Positions 573-31,181 of a DNA stretch of 64,000 nt are shown in pieces. Source of the DNA: a virus; the IMG/VR virus record IMGVR_UViG_3300042484_000849, positions 1 to 64,000 of that record; one strand, written 5' to 3'. Positions within the stretch are counted from its first letter, which is position 1; the number at the start of each line of letters is the position of its first letter. The translations under genes and the position numbers were made by a program. The notes beneath the pieces were generated by a model. It did not search any database and was not told the DNA's origin. It saw only the letters and a program-made list of their open reading frames with translations.

Positions 573-595
573 GCCCGGCAACCCCGGGCTTTATT
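573..595 (+). terminator. Rho-independent terminator
   Basis: GCCCGG / CCGGGC hairpin (573-578 with 584-589) followed by TTTATTG. It separates the + strand gene from the convergent minus-strand gene ending at 591. Confidence 0.75.
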
Positions 596-1028
596 GTTTA
601 GGTGTCACACTTAGTGATACCCTAGGATTATCTTTTTGTAATCCAAATACACCGTGAAACATGTCAGTTTTAATACTGTGCCATGTACGTAATGGTAATA
701 TTTCTGATTGTAATATCTTTTTACTGTCGTCAAATATTACGGTCTTAACATTACTACCGCCTAATACCAGTAAATAGTTATATGCTAATTTCCTATTACC
801 CATATCTTTATGTATAGGTATACCTGAATAGATTATTTGATATTGTGCAACAAAGTTAAATGAAAGGTTCTTTTCAAGCCAGTCTTGTAATTGGTTACTA
901 ACAGGTCTTCCTTGAAAAAAATCTTGCTTAACAATACTATTTATTCGTGTGCTATTAATAATATTTTCAATTGGATCTAGTAACTCATTGGGTATACTAG
1001 GAAAGTTTATATATTCTATATAGTTCAT
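591..1028 (-). CDS. 2OG-Fe(II) oxygenase-like protein, paralogue 3
   Basis: The 145-residue protein has an H73-x-D75 pair, a distal H125 and R136 in a PRVSLSV strand. This is the facial triad plus 2-oxoglutarate-binding arginine layout of double-stranded beta-helix oxygenases. It is the last of three tandem, strongly diverged genes with the same residue layout, and its start overlaps the previous stop. The substrate is unknown. The family call is inferred from the residue pattern only; a non-catalytic cupin-like role remains possible. Confidence 0.55.
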   Translation of the reverse strand: MNYIEYINFPSIPNELLDPIENIINSTRINSIVKQDFFQGRPVSNQLQDWLEKNLSFNFVAQYQIIYSGIPIHKDMGNRKLAYNYLLVLGGSNVKTVIFDDSKKILQSEILPLRTWHSIKTDMFHGVFGLQKDNPRVSLSVTPKQ

Positions 1029-1570
1029 TGGAATAAGTGTGATAAATCAAGGTCATTTCGTAAACGTATTAGTAATGTAATACGTGGTTTTGTATTCTTA
1101 TTTACCACATTATGTGGTTCTTGTACGTTAATAACATTCGGTGTTAACATTTCAAGTTGGTCAACAACTACACAGTCTGCAGGATCAAACCTGTAATAGT
1201 TTATAAGAGTATCATATAACTTGTATACTTCTTTTTTAGGCTCTTTATCAGTCTTATAAAAATTAACAAAAGTATTTTCACAGTTTAGTATTGGTATATT
1301 AAAACTATGAGTAAATGTATTACTATCTAAATGTATATGTGTTCCATTAGTAGTACCAATGATATAAAATCCTATACTAAAGACATAGGGTGTCCAGTTG
1401 AGTTTATCTAACTCTGCTTTTAACTCAGGTATATTTAAGAAAAGATTTAGATTATCAGGTATATAAAACAATGATTCTTTTTTAAAAAGTTCTCTTTTAG
1501 GAAAAAGCTCAAATACTTTTTCTTGTATAGTTTTTAAGTTTTCTATAGGTACAGAAACATAATACTTCAT
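1025..1570 (-). CDS. 2OG-Fe(II) oxygenase-like protein, paralogue 2
   Basis: The 181-residue protein shows H80-x-D82 (in THIHLDS), H153 in EPHNVVN and R163 in PRITLLI, matching the Fe(II) and 2-oxoglutarate ligands of DSBH oxygenases. The PHNV-N-x(5)-PR segment closely resembles that of the upstream paralogue at 1567-2112 (PHNVINYSEPR). It overlaps both neighbours by 4 nt, so the trio is one translationally coupled unit. Likely role is hydroxylation of a protein or small molecule; the target is not predictable. Confidence 0.6.
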   Translation of the reverse strand: MKYYVSVPIENLKTIQEKVFELFPKRELFKKESLFYIPDNLNLFLNIPELKAELDKLNWTPYVFSIGFYIIGTTNGTHIHLDSNTFTHSFNIPILNCENTFVNFYKTDKEPKKEVYKLYDTLINYYRFDPADCVVVDQLEMLTPNVINVQEPHNVVNKNTKPRITLLIRLRNDLDLSHLFQ

Positions 1571-2112
1571 AATGAAACTTCTACATATTTATTGAATATG
1601 CAGATTGATTCTTTCATTGTAAGTCGTTCACCATTTTGTTTAACTAACACTATACTAAGACACCATCTAGGTTCTGAATAGTTAATAACATTATGCGGTA
1701 TACCAGCTTGTATAATGCTAGGAAACTTAACTGATTGTTTATCAGTAATTTCAACTTCATGTAAAGCATAACTGATGTACCTAGTATTAATAGGTGTTTT
1801 GCTAATAGATTTTACAATGTTGTCTTTTGGTTTATACCACATCATTAAACTATCTTTGCCATCGAATATATAGTTTAGTTTGGTATAATCACCCCCTACT
1901 ACATCAATGTGTATCCCGGTTATTGTATGGGGTTTAGTGTAGAATAGTTCAGCCAATATAACTTTTAAATCTAATCTATCTATTAATGATATTAAATTAG
2001 GATTAATATCTGATATTGGAATTCGTGTATGACGATCAGGTCCGTATGATTTTATATCTATATCTTCTTTAAGAGGATTTAGAGATAAGTTTATATCAAA
2101 GCAGTTTGTCAT
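1567..2112 (-). CDS. 2OG-Fe(II) oxygenase-like protein, paralogue 1
   Basis: The 181-residue protein has H68-x-D70 (GIHID), H140 in IPHNVIN and R149 in EPRWCLS, again the HxD...H...R pattern of Fe(II)/2-oxoglutarate oxygenases. The open frame extends upstream through the opposite strand of tRNA-Gly, so that longer start is rejected. The ATG at 2112 lies 9 nt after the end of a late-type ATAAATA motif, so the mRNA would have almost no leader. First gene of the three-gene unit. Confidence 0.6.
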   Translation of the reverse strand: MTNCFDINLSLNPLKEDIDIKSYGPDRHTRIPISDINPNLISLIDRLDLKVILAELFYTKPHTITGIHIDVVGGDYTKLNYIFDGKDSLMMWYKPKDNIVKSISKTPINTRYISYALHEVEITDKQSVKFPSIIQAGIPHNVINYSEPRWCLSIVLVKQNGERLTMKESICIFNKYVEVSL

Positions 2113-3373: not shown

Positions 3374-3595
3374 ATGTCACAAAGCAGAGCAAGATATACA
3401 AGTGAAGAAGCCGCACTTATGGTTGGTAGTAGATTTGATTTAGTTCTTATTGCCTCACAGCGGGTAAGAGAATTAAAGCGTGGACATCGTTCATTGCTTA
3501 ATACTAAAGCAGGACCAATGGTAACTGCATTAGAAGAAATTGAAGCTGGCTTGATTGGTAGAGAATATCTCAAACGTATTAGAAAGAATTTGTAA
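3374..3595 (+). CDS. rpoZ: RNA polymerase omega subunit homologue
   Basis: A 73-residue protein containing the omega core: VGSRFDLVLIASQRVREL at about 17-34, then VTALEEIEAGLIGREYL near 50-66. These match bacterial RpoZ segments around NRFDLVL and VIALREIEEGLI. Omega clamps the beta-prime C-terminus and assists RNA polymerase assembly. The phage copy lacks the long acidic C-terminal tail of E. coli omega. It lies inside the tRNA array with AAGGAAA before its ATG. Likely role, by inference, is replacement of host omega to bias polymerase towards phage promoters. An omega-like phage regulator is the main alternative. Confidence 0.85.
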   Translation: MSQSRARYTSEEAALMVGSRFDLVLIASQRVRELKRGHRSLLNTKAGPMVTALEEIEAGLIGREYLKRIRKNL

Positions 3596-19341: not shown

Positions 19342-20175
19342 TTATGGATTGTTAACCGACTTAATGATCCAATAATCACTGCTCATATTAGGTTTGATAA
19401 CATCAAATGGCATGTAGAAGTAACCCTTATCTCCCCAATAAGGTCCCCAACTGTTTCTGACAATAAAGACTTTCTTACGCTTATCATATCCAACAAGCAA
19501 CACAGCATGACCACCTAATAGCTTTTCACGTTTTGTATTTGGATAGGGCATTCTACCTGTTCTAGCAACAGTAGATGACATAAAACTTTGATAAACATGA
19601 AAGCCTATTATAACTGGATAACCATTTGTTAATGCGTCAATACATCCATTAAAATCATTTACTCTTTCGTATCGTGTTACTTTACGATTCAATGCGTCAA
19701 TCTTTGCTTCATTGATTGGTTCTAGTCTAAATTTTCTAATGTTGTACGGCCAATAAGTTTCTAAACTAGCACCATAGTGATTTGTTGCTTTTATACCATC
19801 ACGTATATAAGCACCACTATCATAGTTAACAGTACCCAATAATAGTCGTTCATAGTAATAGATAAACAATCTACTAACATCTGTTGGTTTACCATTACGT
19901 TTGTTTAGTAATTCAATAGCACCCGCAATAGCTTGTCCAGTACAACTTCCCAGATTACCTTGATTTTCAATTGGACTACAATGACTTCTTAAATCAACAA
20001 AGTTAGGATTTGTATTTGCTGTTACTTGATATTTGTAATCTCTTGTATCTGGTCTATCTGTTTTCCATATTAGGTTATATTTGTCAAGTGTCCTAGGTAT
20101 GACTTTTTTGTCAGCAGGCTTATTAAAGGTATGATCCTCAGTTGTGTTTATTATTGAGCGAGGATCTTGTTTCAT
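19342..20175 (-). CDS. Papain-like cysteine protease (C1 family)
   Basis: A 277-residue protein. The catalytic residues are in place: Q72 and C78 in IENQGNLGSCTGQA, H223 in GGHAVLLVGYD and N241 in VRNSWGPYWGDKGYF. Residues 1-55 form a short polar N-terminal segment; no Sec signal is seen. It lies between two fibre genes on the same strand, so it probably matures a fibre or adhesin, or is carried in the virion to cleave a host surface protein. Both roles are inference. C1 peptidases are uncommon in phages. Confidence 0.85.
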   Translation of the reverse strand: MKQDPRSIINTTEDHTFNKPADKKVIPRTLDKYNLIWKTDRPDTRDYKYQVTANTNPNFVDLRSHCSPIENQGNLGSCTGQAIAGAIELLNKRNGKPTDVSRLFIYYYERLLLGTVNYDSGAYIRDGIKATNHYGASLETYWPYNIRKFRLEPINEAKIDALNRKVTRYERVNDFNGCIDALTNGYPVIIGFHVYQSFMSSTVARTGRMPYPNTKREKLLGGHAVLLVGYDKRKKVFIVRNSWGPYWGDKGYFYMPFDVIKPNMSSDYWIIKSVNNP

Positions 20176-30126: not shown

Positions 30127-30447
30127 TTGAAGTTAACTTATCTATTAATAATTACGTTGTTATTACTACCAATTAAATCATATTCACAACAAATAGAAGA
30201 ATCTATAACAATAGATTTACCCTGTTACAATACAAAAGAAATCTTTAAGAGTATTAGAGAAAAATATAAAGAGTTACCCTTCATGACCGGACAAGTAGCT
30301 GATGAAGCTAGTTCAATAGTAAGTATTTGGTTAAATCCTGTTGATAATAATTGGACTATTCTAGCAACTAAGAAAGACCTTACTTGTGTAGTTGGTATGG
30401 GAACTGATATGAAAATAGTAACTCACAAAAAAGGAACGGATATATGA
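30127..30447 (+). CDS. Exported small protein
   Basis: A 106-residue protein with a Sec signal (KLTYLLIITLLLLPIKSYS, cut before Q). It starts with TTG, supported by TAGGAG 6 nt upstream. The mature part is about 85 residues, contains two Cys (PCYNT, LTCVVG) that could form a disulfide, and is beta-rich. It overlaps the D,D-peptidase gene by ATGA, so the two are likely made together and act in the periplasm. Family not recognised. Confidence 0.7.
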   Translation: MKLTYLLIITLLLLPIKSYSQQIEESITIDLPCYNTKEIFKSIREKYKELPFMTGQVADEASSIVSIWLNPVDNNWTILATKKDLTCVVGMGTDMKIVTHKKGTDI

Positions 30448-31181
30448 TTAAAAAACTTATAGCAATAATAGTATTATCACTATGTGGCACAGCATATGCC
30501 GATCCTAATTTTACTGCCCAAGCTTGGTTAGTAGCTGATAGTAATGGTAAAATACTAGAAGGCTCTAATATGTCTGAAATACGTAGCATTGCTAGTATAA
30601 CTAAACTAATGACTGCTATGGTTGTACTAGACAGCGGACAATCACTAACTGAAGTCATTCCAAAAAAACTATACAATAAACATTTAACAAGAGAAATACT
30701 AATTGATTTGGCAATAGTTAAATCGGATAATAACGCTGCCAAAATGTTATGTGATTACTATCCAGGTGGATATAACAAATGTATTGATGCTATGAATTAT
30801 AAAGCGGCATCATTACAAATGAATAACAGTACTTTTACTGATCCAACAGGTAGATTACATACAAACGTTAGTACAGCACATGATTTGATTAAATTAGTAT
30901 TTGCCGCAAGTACGTATCCATTAATAGTAACAGCAAGTAATATGGATGCTGTACGATGGAGTATCGGTAAGAAGAAAACAGCAGAATTCAGAAACACTAA
31001 TACTCTAGTAGGAAATGGTTATAAATTCTTAGTAAGTAAAACTGGCTTTATCAATAAAGCAGGTGGATGTATTGTTATGATGATGGATACAGCAAATGGA
31101 ATCAGGACCGTAGTCCTGTTGGGTTCAAAGAATACTACAACTCGTATCCCAGAAGCAAAGATGCTATCTATGCTTTATTAA
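30444..31181 (+). CDS. D-alanyl-D-alanine endo/carboxypeptidase (S11, PBP7-like)
   Basis: A 245-residue protein with signal peptide MIKKLIAIIVLSLCGTAYA. All three penicillin-binding motifs are present: S51-I-T-K54, S94-D-N96 and K199-T-G201. Length and motif spacing match PbpG-type endopeptidases without the C-terminal membrane anchor. It would cut peptidoglycan cross-links or terminal D-Ala in the periplasm. In a phage this could assist lysis, remodel the wall during infection or alter the wall against other phages. All three roles are inference. Confidence 0.88.
   Translation: MIKKLIAIIVLSLCGTAYADPNFTAQAWLVADSNGKILEGSNMSEIRSIASITKLMTAMVVLDSGQSLTEVIPKKLYNKHLTREILIDLAIVKSDNNAAKMLCDYYPGGYNKCIDAMNYKAASLQMNNSTFTDPTGRLHTNVSTAHDLIKLVFAASTYPLIVTASNMDAVRWSIGKKKTAEFRNTNTLVGNGYKFLVSKTGFINKAGGCIVMMMDTANGIRTVVLLGSKNTTTRIPEAKMLSMLY

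Follow-up and report, generated by a model that had tools for sequence, protein, structure and literature searches.

Three small genes of a late-type cassette in an uncultured phage encode putative Fe(II)/2-oxoglutarate-dependent oxygenases

Multi-copy 2-oxoglutarate (2OG)-Fe(II) oxygenases are already known from aquatic phages. Cyanophage and pelagiphage genomes carry many small, low-identity members of families PF13640, PF13661, PF13759, and PF05721 (PMC9602691, PMC3037559, PMC11561400), and the cyanophage S-SCSM1 possesses 24 such genes; the viral functions of these genes have not been specifically investigated (PMC9602691). Most phage proteins of a further family, PF05118 (Asp_Arg_Hydrox; Asp/Asn/Pro hydroxylase-type), show an HxD...H...R order of residues. 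Sullivan et al. 2010 reported that sporadic genes occur in a hotspot close to gp5 that has tRNAs (PMC3037559). Late promoters of the T4 type are represented by TATAAATA in T4 and by NATAAATA in S-PM2 (PMC2984593).

We analyzed three genes, designated O1, O2, and O3, in positions 1 to 64,000 (hereafter the window, 64,000 nucleotides) of IMG/VR record IMGVR_UViG_3300042484_000849, which derives from an uncultured phage; the 89.6-kb contig is probably a genome fragment. We assign the products to the class of small Fe(II)/2OG-dependent oxygenases with a probability of about 0.85, and we infer catalysis. Like the cyanophage and pelagiphage enzymes they are small, several to a genome, and of low identity; in contrast, they belong to other sequence families, for which 50,697 isolate phage records contain no relative, and are further members of a known theme in new families.

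Gene layout, conserved residues, and families

The preliminary description had placed three coupled genes at 591 to 2112, and the open reading frames bear out those coordinates. All three lie on the minus strand with 4-nt stop/start overlaps joining O3 to O2 and O2 to O1, and they look like one operon (Table 1). The ATG at 2112 is the likely start of O3 because a TTG start at 2211 would cross tRNA-Gly (2128-2201) and the N termini of homologues fit 2112. The window also encodes a homologue of RpoZ, the RNA polymerase omega subunit, with close copies in three related contigs (L001, L003, and L007), along with a papain-family protease and a D-Ala-D-Ala carboxypeptidase.

Table 1. Positions of the oxygenase-like genes, promoter motifs, tRNA genes, and other genes mentioned in the text
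Feature	Positions	Strand	Description	Basis
O1	591-1028	minus	145 aa; third operon gene; H73-x-D75, H125, R136	ORF
O2	1025-1570	minus	181 aa; second operon gene; H80-x-D82, H153, R163	ORF
O3	1567-2112	minus	181 aa; first operon gene, likely ATG at 2112; H68-x-D70, H140, R149	ORF
ATAAATAC, T4/cyanophage-type late promoter motif	2120-2127	minus	7 nt before the O3 ATG	sequence
TATAAATA	2112-2119	plus	faces tRNA-Gly	sequence
tRNA-Cys	127-202	plus	other border of the operon's slot	ARAGORN
tRNA genes Gly, Leu, Ala, Met, Pro	2128-2756	plus	divergent from the operon	ARAGORN
tRNA Val and Trp	to 3675	plus	continuation of the array	ARAGORN
RpoZ homologue	3374-3595	plus	73 aa; matches a solved omega chain at E 3.5e-9	
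Papain-family protease gene	19342-20175	minus	PF00112	
D-Ala-D-Ala carboxypeptidase gene	30444-31181	plus	PF00768	

The order H-x-D, distal His, Arg, pointed out in the preliminary description, is present in all three proteins and, judged by the invariant columns of the family alignments, lies far beyond chance. In an alignment of 25 O2/O3-type sequences (A6), no columns are invariant except H80, D82, H153, and R163 (O2 numbering), which correspond to the predicted Fe(II)/2-oxoglutarate quartet. In nine O1-type sequences (alignment A7), H73, D75, and H125 (O1 numbering) are invariant and the Arg is aligned in 8 of the 9 rows. The Arg is situated 9 to 11 residues C-terminal to the distal His. 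Overall identity is as low as had been proposed (19% between O2 and O3). The homology of these two proteins was nevertheless detected by phmmer (E about 4e-4), and the O3-family profile finds O2-type proteins with E values down to 5e-11 (among 1118 ORFs). An hhalign comparison of the O1 family with the O2/O3 family gave a probability of 84% at a pairwise E of 8e-6 and brought HxD, H, and R into register. Judged by these comparisons, O1, O2, and O3 are homologous to one another despite their low identity.

Searches of Pfam, PHROG, NCBIfam, and PADLOC yielded no credible model match to O1-O3 and no curated model at threshold; the known and candidate defense systems of PADLOC were among the models without a match. 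In the Pfam scans the three proteins remained below the family cut-offs of PF05118 and of the cyanophage families PF13640, PF13661, PF13759, and PF05721. No relative was obtained by tblastn of the window proteins and distant members against the isolate phage records, or when O2- and O3-family patterns were run in two non-exhaustive scans against genomes of bacteria and archaea, and a sequence search of solved structures returned nothing credible. Relatives of all three were found in IMG/VR contigs, with identities of 71 to 72% (L001) and 46% (L003) for O1, 52 to 62% for O2, and 35 to 56% for O3. O2-O1 pairs recur in L001, L003, L032, and L049/L061, and O3 types stand alone in others; within the window's own record, these profiles detect O1-O3 and no further family member. 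The three families are outside all libraries searched and undescribed, and both the families and the form of the cassette are new.

PF05118 offers the closest candidate for a family connection. When the O2/O3 profile was compared with one of PF05118 proteins from phages, the core aligned with a probability of 88% and a pairwise E of 3e-6, HxD, H, and R included, whereas the comparison for O1 was not significant. The O1-O3 clades are nevertheless separate from the PF05118 proteins in a phylogenetic tree. PF05118 genes occur in records of related phages, but none was found in this record, in which PF13640 was likewise not found.

A single branch of the tree splits off each family, O1, O2, and O3 (SH-aLRT 90, 95, and 99), and every one of the window's three proteins groups with orthologues from other phages. 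The preliminary description had envisaged a triplication with divergence; the tree leads us to reject a recent local one, and the genes are old paralogous subfamilies that separated long before this phage. They are under purifying selection: pN was well below pS in every comparison, and dN/dS was about 0.17 to 0.33 between window genes and relatives with estimable dS, with lower values in several close pairs.

The late-type promoter and the tRNA array

The ATAAATAC motif upstream of O3 and the oppositely oriented TATAAATA together form a near-palindrome (2113-2127) that is possibly a two-way late promoter for the oxygenase operon and the tRNA array. Of twelve copies of the ATAAATAC 8-mer in the 89.6-kb record, nine are found no more than 60 nt ahead of a gene's ATG, compared to 4% of random positions. 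The motif NTAAATA starts 11 to 15 nt before the ATG in 19 of 21 first genes of cassettes, which were taken from relatives that include near-identical ones and are thus partly non-independent, and in none of five downstream genes. Across three records, the motif occurs at this spacing before 24 genes versus about 0.7 expected; by a crude pattern, a Shine-Dalgarno-like site accompanies 2 of these 24 genes and 81 of 164 others. In this record alone, ten genes have the motif about 12 nt before the ATG where 0.43 would be expected, and hardly any of them has a Shine-Dalgarno-like site. The arrangement resembles that of T4 and S-PM2 in that the same motif precedes genes (PMC2984593), but differs in that it often stands only about 12 nt from the ATG and usually lacks an accompanying Shine-Dalgarno-like site. 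Lying immediately ahead of the first ATG, the late-type promoter suggests that the operon is expressed late in infection. From the short spacing, set against the promoter-to-start distance of T4, we infer that late mRNAs of these phages may be leaderless.

The phage carrying the operon is probably tailed and T4-related. The 89.6-kb record contains no match to T4 Gp23 or the T4 portal, so the evidence for this kinship consists of the late promoters together with G008, a related record of 235 kb that possesses both genes. The T4 clamp model also had no match in the record, a result that is uninformative since the model matched nothing elsewhere.

In several relatives, the oxygenase-like genes are located beside Gly, Cys, and Ser tRNAs. 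tRNA genes were present within the fetched DNA of 14 of 17 independent contig groups that carry these genes, a count biased upward because the search began from a tRNA-linked gene; around the relatives in L039, L063, and L076, the DNA fetched was free of tRNA genes. The array slots also harbor GIY-YIG-like and HNH homing endonucleases, radical SAM, methyltransferase-like, and glycosyltransferase-like proteins, as well as 2OG oxygenases that belong to PF13640, PF13759, and PF05118. With so many unrelated insertions, the position marks a general cargo hotspot. Cassettes consisting of a late promoter and one to three oxygenase-like genes occupy accessory slots in the tRNA arrays of other phages. 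Homing-endonuclease-like genes were observed in or beside the arrays of relatives at L003:6466-7080 and L007:2290-2904 (by sequence) and at L007:10215-10543 (HNH_3, Pfam).

Predicted folds and enzyme class

AlphaFold models were of high confidence for O1 (pLDDT 91.6, pTM 0.86) and O2 (pLDDT 93.1, pTM 0.88). The preliminary description held that folds lacking a double-stranded beta-helix would speak against an Fe(II)/2OG oxygenase; both models are predicted to adopt double-stranded beta-helix-type folds of the 2OG-oxygenase type, and O3 would share this fold by its homology with O2. The Fe(II)/2OG reading is thus supported by the quartet in all three proteins and by the predicted fold of two, with the fold of the third covered by homology. 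By secondary structure, these residues occupy the expected strands of the O1 and O2 models: an early core strand carries the HxD, the next-to-last begins with the distal His, and the last begins with the Arg. Foldseek comparison of O2 with the PDB gave AndA as the best match, followed by PHD2 (HIF prolyl hydroxylase 2) and Ofd2, and a viral structure library returned an uncharacterized protein of an uncultured phage (TM 0.84). The top PDB matches of O1 were Psf4, a nucleoside-antibiotic hydroxylase, and OGFOD1, with HppE also present. O1 matched proline 3-hydroxylase type II (1e5r) with a TMq of 0.59 to 0.64 at a sequence identity of only 11 to 12%, so the substrate of O1 is not inferable from that enzyme. 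TM-scores to solved structures were modest (about 0.3 to 0.64), and the matches include non-2OG enzymes of similar fold, among them cupins; support for 2OG as cosubstrate therefore comes mainly from the Arg and from homology. On the proposed mechanism, the H-x-D...H triad of each protein would bind Fe(II), the conserved Arg with which the last core strand begins would hold 2OG, by analogy with known enzymes, and each of O1, O2, and O3 would hydroxylate its own substrate; different substrates for the three are plausible.

The same fold also serves Fe(II) enzymes that do not use 2OG, such as HppE/Psf4-like epoxidases or other cupin oxygenases, and the appearance of Psf4 and HppE among the O1 matches and of cysteine dioxygenases and oxalate decarboxylases among those of O2 lends that assignment some support. 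HppE/Psf4-like epoxidases would be expected to have a metal site without a conserved 2OG-binding Arg; the O1-O3 types conserve an Arg at the predicted 2OG-anchor position. This residue, which is invariant in the 25 O2/O3-type sequences, present in nearly all O1-type sequences, and aligned with the Arg of PF05118 in the profile comparison, is expected of a 2OG anchor, and we regard a 2OG-independent reaction as very improbable.

The preferred assignment to Fe(II)/2OG-dependent oxygenases leaves the target to be considered. Ribosomal proteins and tRNA are substrates of some known 2OG oxygenases, and the preliminary description had raised, from the position of the genes, hydroxylation of such targets. 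Enzymes directed at tRNA, ribosomal proteins, or translation factors might be sited beside the array on which they act, consistent with the tRNA genes in 14 of 17 contig groups. The position loses its force as an argument, and we reject a tRNA-directed function argued from it, because the array slots are full of unrelated cargo, comparable to the hotspot near gp5 (PMC3037559), and because the relatives in L039, L063, and L076 are without tRNA in their fetched flanks; a late promoter is moreover ill-suited to taking over translation early. Nothing relevant on asparaginyl hydroxylases of phages in connection with ribosomes was found in the literature. We consider action on the translation apparatus very improbable. 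The residence of the genes among homing endonucleases in a hotspot, and their varying presence and copy number between phages, could also indicate catalytically dead proteins or passengers kept for the insertion site alone. Since amino-acid change is selected against and the quartet is intact in essentially every copy, we give this explanation scarcely any credence.

Islands of related genes and possible action late in infection

In G008, about seventeen to twenty HxD-H-R genes are located in the first 42 kb, many in tandem, and the presence and copy number of these genes vary between phages. Within positions 1-50000 of this record (L102-L104), oxygenase-like genes were observed beside PP-loop ATPase-like, radical SAM-like, desaturase-like, GNAT-like, and ATP-grasp-like proteins, only some of which were checked against family models, the rest being named from sequence. 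The region resembles a dense, biosynthesis-like island. In a separate contig, a tryptophan-halogenase-like gene (L062:1805-2977; PF04820, E 3e-22) directly adjoins an O1-type oxygenase gene.

O1-O3 might represent the small end of a late tailoring system by which such phages would chemically modify a peptide, a lipid, or part of the virion. This reading, which we consider doubtful, draws on the islands of up to about twenty oxygenases in uncultured relatives, of which at least one is T4-like, and on the island partners (PP-loop ATPase-like, radical SAM, desaturase-like, and ATP-grasp-like proteins, with a tryptophan-halogenase-like protein in one case).

In the preferred reading of O1-O3 as three hydroxylases with separate substrates, the nearest relatives are Asp/Asn/Pro hydroxylases; a protein side chain, a free amino acid, or a peptide that is made or needed late is, on that basis, a possible, tentatively held guess for the class of substrate.

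2OG oxygenases are common yet unexplained accessory genes of aquatic phages, and the three additional families add to this puzzle. The position of the motif predicts leaderless late messages in these phages, and the late-promoter cassettes provide a testable clue that the enzymes may act late in infection.
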